In this document: positions 1,781 through 9,131 of the stretch, piece by piece
How the letters are laid out: every line of letters begins with the position of its first letter
Numbering within the stretch: the stretch's first letter is position 1
NCBI RefSeq assembly: GCF_014652875.1
Contig: NZ_BMZQ01000002.1
Location: forward strand, 620,001 to 684,000
Length of the DNA: 64,000 nt
Reading direction: 5' to 3'
Source of the DNA: Tianweitania populi
GTDB taxonomy: Bacteria > Pseudomonadota > Alphaproteobacteria > Rhizobiales > Rhizobiaceae
Translations under genes and position numbers: made by a program
The notes under the pieces: generated by a model
What the model was told of the DNA's origin: nothing
Database searches by the model: none
The model's input: the letters and a program-made list of their open reading frames with translations, nothing else

Positions 1781-2776
1781 ATGTCCAAGAACGAACAAGC
1801 CGCAGCATCGCGCGGCACGATGAAGGCCGCTGTCGTGACCGGCGCCGGCCAGATGCAGGTGGATCAGGTCGCCATCCCCGAGCCGAAGGTCGGCGAGATC
1901 CTCATCCGGCTGGAGGGTACAGGCGTCTGCGCATCCAATCTCGGCCCTTGGAGCGGTCCGGACTGGATGCAGTTTCCGACCGAACCCGGCGGTCTCGGCC
2001 ATGAAGGCTGGGGCGTGGTCGAAGCGCTTGGCGCGGACGTCACTGGCTTTGCCGTCGGTGACCGCGTGGCCGCGCTGTCGCAGCACGCTTATGCCGCCTA
2101 CGACACGGTGCCGGCCGAGATGGCAGTTCATTTGCCGGATTCGCTTTCCGGACAACCATTCCCAGGCGAGCCGCTGGGCTGCGCCATGAACATCTTCCGC
2201 CGTGCTGAGATCGAGGCCGGGCAGACGGTGGCGATCATCGGCATCGGCTTTCTTGGCGCATTGCTGACGCAGCTGGCTTCCAAGGCCGGCGCGCGCGTCA
2301 TTGCCATCTCGCGCAGACCGTTCTCGCTGGAGTTCGCAAAAGCGATGGGGGCGGCCGAGGTAATTCCTATGGAGGATCATTGGGCGATCATCGAACAGGT
2401 GAAGCAGCTGACGGATGGCCGTTTCTGCGACCGCGCGATCGAGGCCGTCGGGAAGCAGTGGCCACTTGATTTAGCCGGCGAATTAACGATGGAGCGCGGC
2501 CGCTTGATTGTCGCAGGGTATCATCAGGATGGACCCCGTCAGGTCAACATGCAGATGTGGAACTGGCGCGGGCTGGACGTGATCAATGCGCATGAGCGCG
2601 ATCCCGCGATCTATATGCGCGGCATGCGCGAGGCGGTGGATGCGGTGGTCAGCGGCCGCCTCGATCCGACGCCGCTTTATACGCATACCTATCCCCTCGA
2701 AGAGCTCGGCACGGCGCTGAACGCGACACGCGACCGTCCGGAAGGCTTCCTCAAGGCACTGGTGGTGCCGCGATGA
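1781..2776 (+). CDS. Zinc-type medium-chain dehydrogenase (MDR superfamily)
   Basis: A 331-residue MDR oxidoreductase. The catalytic zinc site is visible: the cysteine in GVCASN near residue 47, GHEGWG, and the cysteine in PLGCAMN. The cofactor loop is GIGFLG. The four-cysteine structural-zinc loop of classical alcohol dehydrogenases is missing, as in some polyol and sugar dehydrogenases. In GVCASN an Asn replaces the usual Asp/Ser after the catalytic cysteine. An internal ATG (MKAAVVTG, residue 14) is a possible alternative start. The gene lies between ugd and a Gfo/Idh/MocA gene, so a sugar, cyclitol or glycoside substrate is likely. The exact substrate cannot be read from the sequence. Confidence 0.8.
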   Translation: MSKNEQAAASRGTMKAAVVTGAGQMQVDQVAIPEPKVGEILIRLEGTGVCASNLGPWSGPDWMQFPTEPGGLGHEGWGVVEALGADVTGFAVGDRVAALSQHAYAAYDTVPAEMAVHLPDSLSGQPFPGEPLGCAMNIFRRAEIEAGQTVAIIGIGFLGALLTQLASKAGARVIAISRRPFSLEFAKAMGAAEVIPMEDHWAIIEQVKQLTDGRFCDRAIEAVGKQWPLDLAGELTMERGRLIVAGYHQDGPRQVNMQMWNWRGLDVINAHERDPAIYMRGMREAVDAVVSGRLDPTPLYTHTYPLEELGTALNATRDRPEGFLKALVVPR

Positions 2777-3768
2777 ATGCTGCCAAGCAACGCGTCGGCT
2801 TCCTTGGCGTCGGCTGGATTGGCCGGCAACGGATGCAGGGGATCATTGATACGGGCGTCGTTGAGGTTGTGGCCCTCGCTGATCCTTCGCCGGAGATGAC
2901 GGACGAAGCCGCCAAGCTCGTGCCAGGAGCCGCCATCGGCGCTATGCTGGACGACGTGCTGGCGCAGGATCTCGACGGGCTGGTGATCGCCACGCCCAGC
3001 GCCTTGCATGCGGATCAATCCATTGCGGCGCTGAAGGCCGGCGTCGCCGTGTTCTGCCAGAAGCCGCTTGGGCGTTCAGCCCGCGAAGTGCAGGCGGTGA
3101 TCGATGCGGCGCGGGATGCCGATCGGCTGCTTGGCGTCGACTTCTCCTATCGCTTCACCGCCGGCGTTCAGGCGATCCGAGAACTGGTGCAAGGCGGCGA
3201 ACTCGGCGACATCCGCGCGATCGATCTCACCTTCCACAACGCCTACGGTCCGGGTAAGCCGTGGTTTTATGACCGCAGTCTCTCCGGTGGCGGCTGTTTG
3301 ATCGATCTCGGCGTGCACCTCATCGATCTGGCGCTTTGGGTGCTCGACTTTCCTGAGGTCAGCGACGTTAGCGGGCATCTTCTGTCCGACGGCAAGCTGC
3401 TCCATGCCAACCCGGAAGCCGTCGAGGATTACGCCGTGGCTTCGTTCCGCTTGGGCACCAGCACGATCGTGCGGATTGCCTGTTCGTGGCAATTGCAGGC
3501 GGGGCAGGAAGCGGTGATTTCGGCTGCGTTCTATGGTGCGCAAGGTGGGGCGGAACTGCGTAACGTCGACGGCTCGTTCTATGATTTCACGGCCAAACGC
3601 TTCCGCGGCACATCGAGCGAGACGCTGGTGTCGCCGCCTGACGAGTGGGGCGTACGAGCGGCTCAGGATTGGGCGGAGCGGCTTGCGCGCAGCAAAAGCT
3701 TCGACCACCAAGCCGAGCGGATCGTGGATGTGTCCAGGGTTCTCGACCGCATCTACGGCATCACATGA
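2773..3768 (+). CDS. Gfo/Idh/MocA-family oxidoreductase
   Basis: A 331-residue NAD(P)-dependent dehydrogenase of the family that includes inositol 2-dehydrogenase and glucose-fructose oxidoreductase. The N-terminal Rossmann loop is GVGWIG (residues 12-17). The family's EKP motif reads CQKPLG, so Gln replaces the usual Glu. The second domain carries GGGCLIDLGVHLIDLALW, which includes the conserved Asp and His of the active site. Its ATG overlaps the stop of the MDR gene (ATGA), implying translational coupling. Two dehydrogenases from different families made together, beside inositol-phosphate synthase, suggest successive or reversible oxidation at a ring carbon. This is inference, and no substrate is assigned. 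Confidence 0.85.
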   Translation: MNAAKQRVGFLGVGWIGRQRMQGIIDTGVVEVVALADPSPEMTDEAAKLVPGAAIGAMLDDVLAQDLDGLVIATPSALHADQSIAALKAGVAVFCQKPLGRSAREVQAVIDAARDADRLLGVDFSYRFTAGVQAIRELVQGGELGDIRAIDLTFHNAYGPGKPWFYDRSLSGGGCLIDLGVHLIDLALWVLDFPEVSDVSGHLLSDGKLLHANPEAVEDYAVASFRLGTSTIVRIACSWQLQAGQEAVISAAFYGAQGGAELRNVDGSFYDFTAKRFRGTSSETLVSPPDEWGVRAAQDWAERLARSKSFDHQAERIVDVSRVLDRIYGIT

Positions 3769-3772
3769 AAAA

Positions 3773-3794
3773 GGAGCGCGCTGCGCTCCCTTTT
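3773..3794. terminator. Bidirectional terminator between convergent operons
   Basis: A perfect 7-bp stem, GGAGCGC/GCGCTCC with a 3-base loop, is preceded by AAAAA and followed by CTTTTCTTT. It can therefore end both the rightward ugd operon and the leftward inositol-synthase operon. Confidence 0.85.
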
Positions 3795-3815
3795 CTTTGT
3801 AGCTCGCTGCCCGGA

Positions 3816-4751
3816 TCAAACCAGAGCGGGCATAGGGGCCGGTGTCGGCTCGCTGCGCTTGGAGGCGCCGGCGTAGCGGCGTGTCATGGCCGCGCAGAAT
3901 TCGGCGAACTCTTCCGGCACCTGCGGCGCGCTGGAATGATGCGGGGCGATGCCGCGATGTTCGGGCGTGAAGCAGTAGGTCACCGTCACGTCGAAATCGG
4001 CGAGCGCTTCCATCTGCTTGTCGAACCAGTCGAGCGCGTTGGGGCGGAAGCTGTCAGCCCAGGAAATACCGGTGCGCAGATAGGTCACGCCCAGACGCTT
4101 CATCCAGGCCACGGCGTCTTCCAGGCGGTGGTCATGATAATGGAACCACTGCACGACGCCCATGTCAGGCGTGAGCTCGGCAAAAGCTTCAGCGGCTGGC
4201 TTCGGTGTGCCGTCCTGGCGCAGAAGGCCCATGTAGAAGTGGCGGTAGTAGGAGGAGCCCTCCGCTTCGCGATGACGCGTGGTCGCTTCCCATTCGCGCG
4301 GCAGATCGTAGAGCGAATACCAGTGAATGCGCGGCGCCTGACCTTTAAGAAGCTCGGCCGTGCGCTTGATGCCCCAATGCTGCACTTCCTCGGCGCCAAA
4401 GGTCGAGATGCCGACCTCGCTGACCCAAACCGGCAAATGGGTCAGCGCCCGAATTTCCTGCACCTTCTGCGGCCATTCGCCGATCTGCCACAGGTTCCAG
4501 TCGAGCGGGAAACCGTGCACGGCAACCGCGTCGACATGGTCGAGCACGCCAAAATCCTTCATTCGGTTGATGAAGATCGGATCGATCGGCGAGATGCCGC
4601 CCAGCACGCGTGTCAGGCCCGGCGCTTCGGCGGCGATCGCCTGGCCTGCGAGCTTGGCCATGTCAGCAAATTTCGACCAATCCGGATCGACTTCGGGATC
4701 CCAATGCGACTTGTTGTTGGGTTCGTTCCAGATCATCGCCGCTTCGATCAC
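3816..4751 (-). CDS. Glycoside hydrolase, clan A type, apparently circularly permuted
   Basis: A 311-residue cytosolic protein (no signal peptide) resembling GH39/GH5-type beta-glycosidases. It begins with MIEAAMIWNEPNN, the strand-4 acid/base motif (Glu10), and has the strand-7 nucleophile motif VWVSEVG (Glu112). The segment that should come first in a TIM barrel is at the end: residues 196-294 read as strand 1 (GVVQWF), strand 2 (VTYLRTGISW), strand 3 (VTVTYCFTP) and helix 3 (EEFAEFCAAMTRRYA). In the canonical order these would run straight into the NEP strand. The last ~17 residues are a Pro/Ala-rich tail. The start overlaps the methyltransferase stop (ATGA), so no missing N-terminal half is hidden upstream. 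It is fourth in the inositol-synthase operon and may trim or transfer a glycoside. Substrate unknown. Confidence 0.75.
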   Translation of the reverse strand: MIEAAMIWNEPNNKSHWDPEVDPDWSKFADMAKLAGQAIAAEAPGLTRVLGGISPIDPIFINRMKDFGVLDHVDAVAVHGFPLDWNLWQIGEWPQKVQEIRALTHLPVWVSEVGISTFGAEEVQHWGIKRTAELLKGQAPRIHWYSLYDLPREWEATTRHREAEGSSYYRHFYMGLLRQDGTPKPAAEAFAELTPDMGVVQWFHYHDHRLEDAVAWMKRLGVTYLRTGISWADSFRPNALDWFDKQMEALADFDVTVTYCFTPEHRGIAPHHSSAPQVPEEFAEFCAAMTRRYAGASKRSEPTPAPMPALV

Positions 4752-5539
4752 GCGCGGTCTCCTTTTGCGGGGTACACCGCTTCTGCGCCATAAGGGCGAT
4801 CAGTCGTGCGGCAGATATAAACTTCCTGTTCCGGATGCGCCTCGATCCGAAAACCGGCGCTGCGCAGCATGGCTTCCATGCCGGCGCGGTTGGGCACCCA
4901 CCAGTTGGTGGGATCATCAGCATAGCGATGCTCGATAAAAGACATGTGCGGAAAAGCGGGATCGTCGAACAGCTTGGTGTTCTCGAAAGGATAGTTTTCC
5001 GCCACCTCGGCCACATCCTTGCTGCCGCGCTGCATGGATTGAAACACCAGCAGATCATCGGCAACATGCTCGCGGATCAGGTCGAGCGCGAGCAGTGGGT
5101 GGCGCAGATGATAGAGCACGCCCATGAACAGCACGACATCGAACTTTTCGCCGAGCTTGCCGACATCATAAACCGACAGCTGACGGAACTCGATATCGGC
5201 GCCCTCGACCTCGGCCACGAAGCGCGCCTGCGCCAGATAGGCGTCGTCGAAATCGACACCCAACACGCGCTCAGCGCCGCGGCGTTTCATTTCGAGCGAG
5301 TAGAAGCCGCCATTGCAGCCAATATCGAGCACCGTCTTGCCGGTCAGATCGGCCGGGATCGCATCGGCGAACTTGCGGAATTTCTGTCGGGGATAATTTC
5401 CCAGGAAATGATCGGGCGCCGTCAGTTGTCCCTGAAGATCGATATTGTGAAACCAAGGGCCGAGCTCTCTGATGCGGCCCTCTATTTCGCTGCTTGAAAG
5501 CGACAAACCCAATCTCCTTTTCGCGCCTGTTTCACTCAA
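4748..5539 (-). CDS. SAM-dependent methyltransferase, CmoB/DUF1698-like (TIGR04290 type)
   Basis: A 263-residue class I methyltransferase. An N-terminal helical segment with WFHNIDL and the GNYPRQKF region leads into motif I, VLDIGCNGGFYSLEMKRRGA, followed by GVDFDDAYL, FDVVLFMGVLYHLRHP and a C-terminal NWWVPN segment. This layout is shared with tRNA carboxymethyltransferase CmoB. The position in a sugar/inositol operon makes a small-molecule or glycan O-methyltransferase more likely than a tRNA enzyme. It resembles what I recall as the TIGR04290 family, but that match was not tested. It sits 39 bases after the phosphatase gene and overlaps the glycosidase by 4 bases. Confidence 0.8.
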   Translation of the reverse strand: MSETGAKRRLGLSLSSSEIEGRIRELGPWFHNIDLQGQLTAPDHFLGNYPRQKFRKFADAIPADLTGKTVLDIGCNGGFYSLEMKRRGAERVLGVDFDDAYLAQARFVAEVEGADIEFRQLSVYDVGKLGEKFDVVLFMGVLYHLRHPLLALDLIREHVADDLLVFQSMQRGSKDVAEVAENYPFENTKLFDDPAFPHMSFIEHRYADDPTNWWVPNRAGMEAMLRSAGFRIEAHPEQEVYICRTTDRPYGAEAVYPAKGDRA

Positions 5540-5578: not shown

Positions 5579-6178
5579 TCATGCGATCGTCTCGTTCAGC
5601 CATAGAAGCCTGGCACCCCAATCCCCCCATACGATCGGGGTGATGGAGGCTGGGCTGATATCAAAGCGATGGACATGGCCAAGCGGCAGATCCAGCACGT
5701 GGCAAACAACGGCTTTGATGATGTCGGCGTGGGTGACGAGCACCACCGCACCGTCTGCGCGGAGGGACGCCGCGTCAGACAAAGCCGCAACCGCCCGCGC
5801 TTGAACCTCGCTCATGCTTTCGCCGCCGGCCGTTCTCGCCGTTCCGCGCTGCTCGTTCCATTGAACCCAGGCAGGGTCGCAGTTGAGCGCGTCCCAGGTC
5901 TTGCCAGACCAGGCATCGCCAAAATCGATCTCGTCCAGCCGCTCGTCGGTCCTAACGGTCAAACCATAGGCCAACGCTACGGCTGAAGCCGTTTCCTGCG
6001 TGCGCTCGCGCGGGCTGGCGATCACCGCATCGAAGCGCTCGCGACCCATGCGCTGTCCCAGACGCTCTGCCTGCGCCCTGCCCTCCACGCCCAGCCGGAT
6101 ACCGGGGGTGCGACCGGCTAGAAAACTGCCGACATTGTCATGCGCGGCATGACGGACGAGGAAGATCGTCGTGGTCAC
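5579..6178 (-). CDS. Histidine phosphatase (phosphoglycerate mutase-like)
   Basis: A 199-residue protein with the catalytic FLVRHAAHD motif at residues 6-14 (RHG family variant RHA), the conserved [11 protein letters not shown] arginine block, and the second catalytic histidine in [13 protein letters not shown]. Its size and motifs fit the small actinobacterial-like phosphomutase/phosphatase group rather than true mutases. It overlaps the end of the inositol-1-phosphate synthase gene by 4 bases. An obvious hypothesis is that it dephosphorylates inositol phosphate to free inositol, taking the place of a classical inositol monophosphatase, of which none is seen here. That role is inferred from context only. 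Confidence 0.85.
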
Positions 6179-7293
6179 TGGGGCGAACCGGCTGCTGATC
6201 CAGCTCCGGCAGGCTCATTCTCACCGCCGATGAAGGCAAGCGTGCGCTCGCGTGCCTCGGCATCCGTGAACTGCTGCGGCGGCGACTTCATGAAGTAGCT
6301 GGACGGCCCCGTCAGCGTGCCGCCGATGCCGCGATCCATCGCGAGCTTGGCGCAACGCACGGCATCGATCACCACGCCGGCGGAATTGGGCGAATCCCAC
6401 ACTTCCAGCTTGAGCTCGGCATTGAGTGGAACGCCGCCGAAAGTGGTGCCTTCCAGACGGATATAGGCCCATTTACGATCGGTGAGCCATGGCACGTGGT
6501 CGCTGGGGCCGACGTGAACATTGCCGGGTTCGAGCGGCACGTCGATCTGGCTGGTGACGGCTTGGGTCTTGGAAATCTTCTTCGATTCCAGCCGCTCCCG
6601 CTCCAGCATGTTGAGGAAGTCGGTGTTGCCGCCGAAATTCAGCTGGTATGTGCGGTCCAGCCTCACGCCGCGCTCGCGGAACAGATTGGCCAGCATGCGG
6701 TGCACGATTGTGGCGCCCACCTGGCTCTTGATGTCGTCGCCGATGATCGGCACGCCCTTGTCGGCAAAACGCTGCTGCCAATCCGGCTGCGAGGCGATGA
6801 AGACGGGGATGCAGTTGACCAGCGCGACGCCGGCTTCCAGCGCCTGCTCGGCATAGAACTCGCTGGCCTTCTGCGAGCCGACCGGCAGATAGGACACCAG
6901 AACGTCGGCGCCGCTCTGGCGCAGGATTTCCGCCACGTCGACAACAGGTTCGGACGACTCTGTGACCGTGTCTTCGAGATAACGGCCGATCCCATCCATG
7001 GTCGGGCCACGCTGAACCGTTACGCCGGTTTTTTCGACGCCGGCAAACTTGAATGTGTTGTTGGGCTCCGCGAAAATCGCATCCGAAACGTCCCGGCCGA
7101 CCTTGGTGTCCGCGACATCAAAGGCGCAGCAAATCTCCACATCGCCGACATGGTATCCCCCGAGGTCGACATTCATCAGGCCAGGAACGGGTTCGTTGCC
7201 GCTCGCTTCACGATAATAGTTCAGACCCTGAACGAGAGAGGACGCACAATTGCCGACGCCGACGATTGCGACACGGACTTTTCTGGAACCCAT
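6175..7293 (-). CDS. ino1: myo-Inositol-1-phosphate synthase
   Basis: Converts glucose 6-phosphate to 1L-myo-inositol 1-phosphate in an NAD-dependent isomerisation. The 372-residue protein is the short, actinobacterial-type form. It has the N-terminal [16 protein letters not shown] nucleotide loop, [24 protein letters not shown], and [12 protein letters not shown] in the catalytic domain. I place the start at the ATG at 7293 ([12 protein letters not shown]) because this matches the family N-terminus; an in-frame ATG at 7323 would add ten residues and has no better ribosome-binding site. It leads the minus-strand operon with phosphatase, methyltransferase and glycosidase, and diverges from the phosphoribosyltransferase-kinase gene across ~125 bases. 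Confidence 0.93.
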
Positions 7294-7418
7294 ACAATTC
7301 CCGATCACCGGAGCTAAGTACATGGCTCAACATTGTAGGGCCCTGGATTGTTCCTTCCAGCCGCCCAGCAAATCGCACTGACATTGCCCGTCACGATGAG
7401 ACGGCAGAAGGCTTGACC

Positions 7419-9131
7419 ATGTGGGTTTATGGCGACGCGCAACGAGCCGGCAAAACGCATGATCTGGCAGCGCGGATCGCCGGGACGCTCGATCATCTGG
7501 GAGATTGCCCTCAAGGGATCGTGCGTCATGCCGAGATCGTCACGGCCTTCGTGGATGCGTCGGAACTCATCCAGGGTTTGATCGATGCTGCGTTCCACGA
7601 ACGCGGCTTCGATGCCGAAACGCCGGAGCAGGAGCGACTGACCGGGCTGCTGTTCGACCTCGCCAAGCTCGTGGAAAGCAGCTGGCGAACGGGCTTTGTT
7701 GAACAGGATGTGCCAGCCGCACTTGTCAGCGCGATGGCAGATTTCGCGCGTGATCAACCTGGTGAAGTCACCACGCGCAGTGCGGAAGGCTACAGCATCT
7801 ATGCGCTTTATCCGGAAACCTACCTGGAGGCGGCTCGTGCCTCTGGCCTGGGTGCCGACACGATCGTCATCGGTATCCGCAGCATAGGGCTCAGCCTGTC
7901 ATGCCTCGTGGCTGCGGCAATGAATGCGCAAGCGCCGATCAGCCTGCGACCGGTGGGTGATCCGTTTGCGCGTAGGATCGAGGCCGATCCGCAGCTTCTC
8001 CAAGCCGTGCTCGCTCGTGGAGAAGCGCCGATCGCGATCGTGGATGAAGGGCCGGGCCTGTCGGGCAGTTCGTTTTTCGCGGTGGCGGACTGGCTGGAAG
8101 GTGGCGGAGTTGAGCGCGATCGCCTCCACTTCTTTCCCAGTCACGGCGGCGAGCCGGGCGGACAAGCGTCTGCGGATCATCGCAAACGCTGGCGCGCCGC
8201 GTCGCGTCATACGGGCGATTTTGACGAGACCCTTCTGCACGAAGGCAGGCTTCAAGAATGGATCACCGACCTCCTCGGGCCGCTCGATTGCCCGTTGCAG
8301 GATCTTTCCTGGGGCAACTGGAAAGGGGAAGGCGATAGGTCACCGGTAGATGCGCGACTGGAGCGACGGAAGTGCCTGGCGCATACGTCTGACGGATCGT
8401 TCCTGCTAAAATTTGCTGGTCTGGGATCAGAAGGGCAGCGGAAGTTCGATGTGGCGGAAACGCTCTTCGCGGCTGGTTTCGCCGTTGAACCGATCGCAAC
8501 CCTGCACGGCATGATCGTCGAGCGATGGATCGACAGCGAGCCCCTCACCGACCGCTACGACCGCGCGGGCCTACTAGACACACTCGGACGCTACCTTGCC
8601 TTGCGCGCGACTTTGCCCGCGCATAACGAAGGGGCTTCTTTGACCCTGCTGGCGGACGTGGCTGCTTTCAATGCAGGCCAAGCTTTCGGTGAGGAGGCGG
8701 CCGAAAGTGTCCGACGTCTGACGAAAGATGCGGCCACCATGCAGCGGCTGGTTCATCCGGTCGATGCGGACAATCGTTTGCATCAATGGGAATGGCGGGT
8801 GACCGCTGATGGTCAGCTTATCAAGACGGATGCGCTTGACCACAGCAGTGCGCATGATCTTGTCGGATGTCAGGACATCGCCTGGGACCTTGCCGGCGCG
8901 ATCGTCGAACATCATCTGACGGTGGAGGAAAGCAGCTTTCTTGCCAGCCAGGTCGGCAGCCTGAGTAAACGGGAGATAGAATGCGACCTCGTCGATCTGC
9001 TTGTGCCCTGCTATCTCGGCTTTCAAACCGGCTTGTGGAGCATGGCACTCGATGCGGCGTCTGACGATCGAAAGCCCGCGCTTCGCCATCTGCTCGAGCG
9101 CTACAAGCTGCGCCTGCGGTCACTGAAGTAG
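7419..9131 (+). CDS. Phosphoribosyltransferase-like/kinase-like fusion protein
   Basis: A 570-residue protein with two recognisable parts. Residues ~120-240 look like a type I phosphoribosyltransferase: a hydrophobic strand (DTIVIGIRSIGLSLS) and the PRPP-loop motif IVDEGPGLSGSS at 207-218. Residues ~310-500 resemble an aminoglycoside-phosphotransferase/kinase fold, with an ATP lysine candidate at Lys331 (SFLLKFAG) and the late motif DIAWDLAGA (486-494). The usual HGD catalytic loop is not clear; KTDALDH (469-475) may play that part. The start at ATG 7419 has AGAAGG seven bases upstream; the open frame extends further left but that part is the antisense of ino1. It is divergent from ino1. Function unknown; the PRPP site suggests it makes or breaks a ribosyl linkage. 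Confidence 0.65.
   Translation: MWVYGDAQRAGKTHDLAARIAGTLDHLGDCPQGIVRHAEIVTAFVDASELIQGLIDAAFHERGFDAETPEQERLTGLLFDLAKLVESSWRTGFVEQDVPAALVSAMADFARDQPGEVTTRSAEGYSIYALYPETYLEAARASGLGADTIVIGIRSIGLSLSCLVAAAMNAQAPISLRPVGDPFARRIEADPQLLQAVLARGEAPIAIVDEGPGLSGSSFFAVADWLEGGGVERDRLHFFPSHGGEPGGQASADHRKRWRAASRHTGDFDETLLHEGRLQEWITDLLGPLDCPLQDLSWGNWKGEGDRSPVDARLERRKCLAHTSDGSFLLKFAGLGSEGQRKFDVAETLFAAGFAVEPIATLHGMIVERWIDSEPLTDRYDRAGLLDTLGRYLALRATLPAHNEGASLTLLADVAAFNAGQAFGEEAAESVRRLTKDAATMQRLVHPVDADNRLHQWEWRVTADGQLIKTDALDHSSAHDLVGCQDIAWDLAGAIVEHHLTVEESSFLASQVGSLSKREIECDLVDLLVPCYLGFQTGLWSMALDAASDDRKPALRHLLERYKLRLRSLK

Follow-up and report, generated by a model that had tools for sequence, protein, structure and literature searches.

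The window, the whole 64,000-nucleotide stretch of Tianweitania populi DNA that we analyzed, carries on its reverse strand a gene for a 311-amino acid glycoside hydrolase (GH), surrounded by the genes listed below. Counts of loci refer to the best 80 of at least 571 confirmed stretches from a scan of a species-genome collection (at least 286 of the 311 residues matched, 75–87% identity).

1781..2776, forward strand: zinc-binding dehydrogenase, orthologue of a cluster gene.
2773..3768, forward strand: Gfo/Idh/MocA oxidoreductase, orthologue of a cluster gene.
4751..3816, reverse strand: permuted GH gene, 311 amino acids, GTG start, protein opening MIEAAMIWNEPN.
4748..5539, reverse strand: TIGR04290-family SAM methyltransferase (TIGR04290, 381.7 bits; cut-off 300), overlapping the GH start by 4 bases.
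5579..6178, reverse strand: histidine phosphatase superfamily protein (PF00300, 158.1 bits), with a similar frame in 78 of 80 loci.
6175..7323, reverse strand: inositol-3-phosphate synthase, Ino1-like (PF01658, 121.6 bits; TIGR03450, 557.5 bits, below the cut-off of 638), with a similar frame in 73 of 80 loci.
7419..9131, forward strand: conserved cluster protein of about 570 amino acids, 43–47% identical to cluster proteins of Roseomonas, Azospirillum and S. meliloti.

The protein of about 570 amino acids matched nothing in Pfam at E 0.001 or in the PDB at E 0.1. The methyltransferase gene is the only TIGR04290 gene of the genome at E 1e-30. The main module of the cluster lies just left of the window at C2:612.4–620.1 kb, reaching its first bases, and the SDR2 gene there stands alone. 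A long antisense frame (3645–4793, forward strand) runs opposite the GH gene and has similar frames in 52 of the 80 loci; it is taken as the mirror of a conserved coding strand in GC-rich DNA, and not as a gene.

The 4-base overlap between the GH gene and the upstream methyltransferase gene, reported in an earlier note made from the sequence, was found again, reading GTGA (GTG start) and not ATGA as given there. A methyltransferase-like frame was present in 71 of 80 loci; 67 of these adjoin the GH gene, with an overlap of 1–8 bases in 62 of those pairs. The phosphatase of locus L131 is present in two pieces. In 79 of the 80 loci the GH start codon occupies the conserved β4 position, with L033 starting one codon upstream, and an in-frame stop directly precedes the conserved start in L026, L028 and L045. 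The conserved start codon and the stops preceding it indicate that no upstream domain supplies strands 1–3; the earlier note had named homologues with such a domain as what would speak against its reading, and the start was conserved across the 80 genome loci.

We gathered 142 matching frames, 120 permuted (113 distinct aligned rows) and 22 of ordinary order, the latter comprising 18 of fused type (two duplicates) and four distant ones. The six ordinary-order relatives found in the class sample described below are proteins of 676–685 amino acids that carry an NAD-dependent epimerase after the barrel (identified by Pfam in two of the six and in the Rhizobium etli protein). A Hidden Markov Model (HMM) profile built from these six matched the window protein in two pieces whose order is swapped. 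The segments, with the strands of the structure model described below, are as follows.

4188..4751, reverse strand: first segment, residues 1–188, β4 to β8; residues 6–188 match HMM positions 121–301 (108.9 bits); strands 2–8, 47–53, 75–80, 108–113 and 142–145.
4173..4187, reverse strand: residues 189–193, five-residue joint of the ancestral C- and N-termini, the gap between the two HMM matches.
3867..4172, reverse strand: second segment, residues 194–295, β1 to α3; residues 194–294 match HMM positions 12–114 (45.1 bits); strands 198–200, 224–230 and 254–260.

The product is a clan GH-A-like (β/α)8 glycosidase with its strands in the order β4–β8, then β1–β3. This is the order proposed in the earlier note, and the same swap occurs in all 120 permuted rows. 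The last ~100 residues, read there as strands and helices 1–3, include residues 194–294, which match the part of the ordinary-order relatives that precedes WNEPN and end in EEFAEFCAAMTRRYA. Aligning the protein with its halves swapped joined both pieces into one better match: across all 311 rotations, the best single HMM match rose from the native 108.9 bits to 147.5 bits at rotation 192. We repeated the scan on the 58 proteins of the A2 alignment, which includes 57 of the 80 fetched loci. Fifty of them gained 33.8–56.6 bits, peaking at rotations 186–195 (every third rotation), and five ordinary-order controls outside the HMM gained 0–1.5 bits with a peak at rotation 0–9. The other eight A2 rows gained only 0.9–7.6 bits; seven of these are 320–329 amino acids long and L024 has 315, and we think that a longer tail in the artificial joint splits their match. 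Neither the HMM, the structure model nor the rotation scan placed the strands of the window protein in the ordinary β1–β8 order, and for this reason it is filed as clan GH-A-like and permuted.

The best PDB sequence match to the window GH was PslG of Pseudomonas aeruginosa (5bx9/4zn2), in which both catalytic Glu residues align. PslG differs in having the ordinary strand order and belonging to a different cluster, and the native window protein fits it in swapped pieces only. As a native single query it matched at E 0.013, with residues 205–295 fitting PslG 30–130 (1.6 bits for this piece alone) and residues 3–189 fitting 132–324. A search made independently of the fused relatives, with the rotated query minus its last 16 residues, gave E 2.6e-7 in one stretch (14–289 on 32–322). 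The native-order A2 profile already matched PslG at E 5e-6, via positions 4–190 alone, and the fused relative L013 yielded neither PslG nor any other relevant match in the PDB. Pfam family PF11790 (Glyco_hydro_cc) scored 16.5 bits with the native and 19.3 bits with the rotated protein, both below the cut-off of 21, and an NCBIfam search with the window GH gave no match. No GH39 model appeared among the Pfam matches up to E 1 or the NCBIfam matches, where a permuted query handicaps such models, and no GH13 or GH70 family or structure appeared among the Pfam or PDB matches of the native and rotated queries. The best explanation is that, in a far relative of PslG, the chain ends moved from the α8/β1 joint to the α3/β4 joint.

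We utilized AlphaFold2 with the A2 alignment to predict the structure of the protein (pLDDT 81.3, pTM 0.83). The model has eight strands alternating with helices in the order β4–β8, β1–β3, with Glu10 after the first strand (β4) and Glu112 in the fourth (β7 of the ordinary barrel). Model confidence falls below 50 at residues 11–15, 84–86 and 155–169, next to the expected active site, and in the C-terminal tail (297–307). VIA-align superposed residues 3–294 on a designed TIM barrel (Z 14.6, rmsd 3.6, 217 aligned) and ranked this barrel, GH20 enzymes and sugar epimerases above GH5 endoglucanases (Z 12.2–12.5). Foldseek returned weak generic matches (TMq 0.15–0.44 in 50 rows), with a GH5 cellulase second at rmsd 11.4. 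Both aligners register the first strand of the model with β1 of their targets; because they preserve chain order, they support a complete barrel and cannot show its circular register, and the lack of PslG or GH39 among the rows listed is not evidence against kinship. In its eight alternating strands and its alignment to complete TIM barrels over residues 3–294, the predicted fold appears to be the barrel that the earlier note had expected.

The unusual order could also reflect a truncated or rearranged gene, with halves left over from a broken glycosidase, or an error of assembly, and nothing other than the order itself would point that way. The same order, start and length (295–329 amino acids) recur in all 80 genome loci, from many species, as expected if the gene is not a truncated one plus a leftover; the permuted rows form a single clade, and the structure model is a confident single domain. 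Against these observations, truncation or misassembly is hardly credible.

Clan GH-A enzymes are defined by a (β/α)8 barrel in which β4 ends in Asn-Glu and β7 carries Glu. Once the permutation is undone, the window protein has this arrangement, N9-E10 following strand 2–8 and E112 lying in strand 108–113. The catalytic codons are the following.

4722..4724, reverse strand: Glu10, predicted acid/base, after the β4 strand; present in 120 of 120 permuted rows; counterpart of chain residue 139 of PslG 5bx9 in the alignment.
4416..4418, reverse strand: Glu112, predicted nucleophile, in β7; present in 120 of 120 permuted rows; counterpart of chain residue 250 of PslG 5bx9 in the alignment.

Both motifs of the earlier note are in place, with E10 within WNEPN and E112 within VSEVG. 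None of the 120 permuted rows or the 13 intact fused rows departs from Asn-Glu-Pro and the nucleophile Glu, and in 45 alignment columns, on either side of the cut, at least 97% of the rows in both sets carry the same residue. PslG residues 139 and 250, counted along the chain of the 416-residue construct, probably correspond, given an offset of 26, to E165 and E276, which the available part of the source names as key residues (PMC9075953). The two glutamates would support retaining hydrolysis or transglycosylation, with Glu10 as acid/base and Glu112 as nucleophile. The enzyme is probably cytoplasmic, since a chain that starts within strand 4 has no space for a signal peptide. The old and new chain-end joints both lie on the barrel face opposite the active site, an arrangement that preserves the catalytic face.

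A non-catalytic scaffold or binding protein would suit a gene that sits in a biosynthetic cluster, but the conservation of Asn-Glu-Pro and the nucleophile in all 120 rows argues against it, as do the fused copies that lack catalytic Glu, which are the longest branches of their own clade (L017, 1.6; L171, 1.03). We therefore consider such a role improbable. It is very likely that the protein is an active clan GH-A-type glycosidase in permuted form that belongs to this glycan pathway, its catalysis being predicted. The glycan would be built by epimerases, CgeB-like glycosyltransferases and a UDP-glucuronate decarboxylase (UXS) that form a conserved set, and the permuted GH is predicted to act on an intermediate or by-product. 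UXS in the cluster makes a xylose-containing substrate possible; plasmid records label homologues 'beta-xylosidase', 'hypothetical protein' or 'glycosyl hydrolase', and the first of these labels finds no support here.

The permuted GH is spread across many soil and plant-associated bacteria. In a class sample of 385 genomes, 14 matched: eight carry full-length homologues (that of the window and seven at 66–77%), and six carry distant relatives in which both halves matched in swapped order within one frame. The first piece of these relatives is 37–42% identical and the second 26–32% (31–32, 30, 31, 32 and 26%, with 30% in G162). Among 347 genomes of the window's order, 32 matched (27 permuted only, three fused only and two both), as did seven of 41 relatives (four permuted, three fused) and 17 of 398 genomes from the phylum (12 permuted, all of the window's class, two fused and three distant). 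Either form was matched in 147 plasmid records, mostly of Sinorhizobium and Rhizobium, and pSymB of S. meliloti 1021 carries the permuted form. The S. meliloti homologue is about 79% identical to the window protein. Viral contigs gave 34 pattern matches, of which none was confirmed.

We generated a quick GH tree from 27 permuted rows (thinned), 15 fused and four distant ones, after dropping L122 and L123 (duplicates) and L012 (97% like L011). The permuted rows split off by a branch with SH-aLRT 97 and the fused rows by one with 98; the outgroup branches are very long. L019 (G277), considered as a second fused copy, was rejected; it is a distant frame of 801 amino acids and served as outgroup only. 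The separate clade and the recurrent neighbors across loci bear out the suggestion of a distinct family tied to this cluster. Because PslG and the four distant rows have the ordinary order, the permuted order is most simply derived, and derived once. How it arose is a separate matter, which does not compete with replacement or an old paralogue, the readings discussed below. Fission of the gene into half-barrels that afterwards joined in reverse, in place of tandem duplication and trimming, would account for the near-exact cut, at which residue 294 falls on HMM position 114 and residue 6 on position 121. Intermediates of either route are absent from the 142 matching frames, which include no tandem double barrel and, in the permuted and fused families, no half-barrel frame (the distant L124 matches HMM positions 34–238 only); fission and fusion is thus a tentative proposal that we rate as rather unlikely.

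The N-terminal domains of the GH–epimerase fusions of Rhizobium etli (pRetNXC12a) and Tistrella (pTM1) are homologous to the window GH and belong to an otherwise orthologous cluster, but they have the ordinary strand order and are fused to SDR2, whereas the window GH is permuted and unfused. Comparison of these plasmid clusters with the permuted ones of S. meliloti, Roseomonas, Paracoccus and Azospirillum showed that SDR1, three CgeB-like glycosyltransferases and the methyltransferase are common to both, and that SDR2, UXS, the dehydrogenase and the Gfo/Idh oxidoreductase mostly are too; some shared genes were not found in the Azospirillum and Tistrella stretches. Orthology was assigned here by BLAST identity, and trees were built for SDR2 and the GH only. 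The shared proteins are about 55–77% identical to those of R. etli (40–42% for the family-4 glycosyltransferase), and the two GH pieces 30–35% and 26–28%. Over 120 × 13 pairs of permuted and intact fused rows, barrel identity was 29–38%, with a median of 33%. Permuted clusters had an SDR2 without a barrel in all 39 of the 80 loci where SDR2 was found within the stretch, and barrel remnants were sought in the N-terminal extensions longer than 40 amino acids of these stand-alone frames, with none found (best E 1.2).

Individual clusters carry further genes. A TIGR04295 B12-binding radical SAM match occurs in clusters L133, L135, L193, L197–L200 and L205, with none in the cluster of the window. 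In the S. meliloti and Paracoccus clusters (L130, L134), a polysaccharide pyruvyl transferase and a coenzyme F420 hydrogenase-like gene lie near the permuted GH.

Four genomes contain both forms (G1025, G846, G348 and G205). In all four, the permuted gene lies apart from the fused cluster, together with Ino1, phosphatase and methyltransferase genes, with a different gene order around the permuted GH in G205 and a glycosyltransferase-like match within the group in G846. Searched genome-wide, TIGR04290 had exactly one copy in 16 of 17 genomes and none in G395. The lone copy sits beside the permuted GH and outside the fused cluster in the four genomes with both forms; in fused-only genomes it is found, where present, within the fused cluster. 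Correspondingly, the fused clusters of genomes with both forms gave no methyltransferase match at E 1e-5 (0 of 3 readable), against 11 of 12 fused-only stretches. S. meliloti departs from this layout: its permuted GH adjoins Ino1 and phosphatase, and its main module ends with the methyltransferase.

The fused barrels that coexist with a permuted one differ in their state: that of G348 (L017) has lost both catalytic Glu residues and that of G846 (L171) the acid/base, that of G1025 is intact, and that of G205 is cut by the contig end and keeps the nucleophile. In L171 and L017 the reading frame continues through the epimerase half despite the lost Glu, giving pseudo-enzymes beside a live-looking permuted copy. 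In the SDR2 tree, which excludes L133, the distribution of fused and stand-alone forms needs four changes, of which the starred branches force two. These data are most simply read as the permuted barrel having repeatedly displaced the fused one, and the permuted GH probably replaced the fused, ordinary-order GH in several lineages. The intact fused barrel of G1025, which coexists there with the permuted one, and the position of the methyltransferase in S. meliloti indicate that neither the gene company nor the replacement is uniform.

Alternatively, the protein could be a true permuted barrel that is an old paralogue acting on a different glycoside and tied to Ino1, phosphatase and methyltransferase, the fused barrel having been lost for other reasons. 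The separate clades of permuted and fused rows on long stems are consistent with this, as are the low whole-barrel identity (29–38% vs. 55–77% for most of the cluster), the intact fused copy that G1025 retains beside its permuted one, and the 12 fused-only stretches, none of which holds Ino1, the phosphatase or a permuted GH. It fits less well with the four changes between fused and stand-alone SDR2, and with the occurrence of all 39 stand-alone SDR2 genes near a permuted GH, in loci that were, though, chosen for the permuted GH. Catalytic loss in two of three readable coexisting fused barrels, compared with none among the 12 fused rows of fused-only genomes, and the single methyltransferase per genome, which accompanies the permuted GH in the four genomes with both forms, also argue against an old paralogue, which we consider possible and less probable than replacement. 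In its fullest form, the replacement reading holds that a permuted barrel of single origin, together with Ino1, phosphatase and methyltransferase, displaced the fused barrel and the resident methyltransferase in several alphaproteobacterial lineages, that the dead fused barrels are fossils of this, and that the permutation may have been selected for freeing the glycosidase from the epimerase; for this whole scenario we see about an even chance.

Circular permutation is rare among natural catalytic barrels. Among glycosidases the best-known case is GH70, which with GH13 belongs to a different clan from GH-A. In the available part of PMC4919382, GH70 glucansucrases have a naturally permuted (β/α)8 barrel that starts at α3–β4 and ends at β3, cut at nearly the same place as the window GH (α3/β4), and an Asp/Glu/Asp active site; the window GH has two predicted catalytic Glu residues. 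The permutation of the window family would be independent of GH70, and the similar cut a case of convergence. MalS (GH13_19) is permuted in its domain order, C-A-B-A-C, according to the accessible text of PMC10223318. PslG is encoded in a polysaccharide-synthesis cluster, where its hydrolytic activity matters (available part of PMC9075953), and it is the precedent for a glycosidase needed inside such a cluster. The literature searched, with CAZy and most subscription papers outside it, described no permuted clan GH-A enzyme, did not link circular permutation to PslG and did not mention TIGR04290.

What is new is that permuted and fused GH forms occupy otherwise orthologous glycan clusters. Profile searches in native order are nearly blind to such proteins, Pfam and NCBIfam giving no family above cut-off. 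Both strand orders survive in one pathway, and in four genomes together, where two fused copies are without catalytic residues. These clusters form an experiment of nature in which the rise and spread of a permuted fold, and any change in its activity or stability, can be studied.
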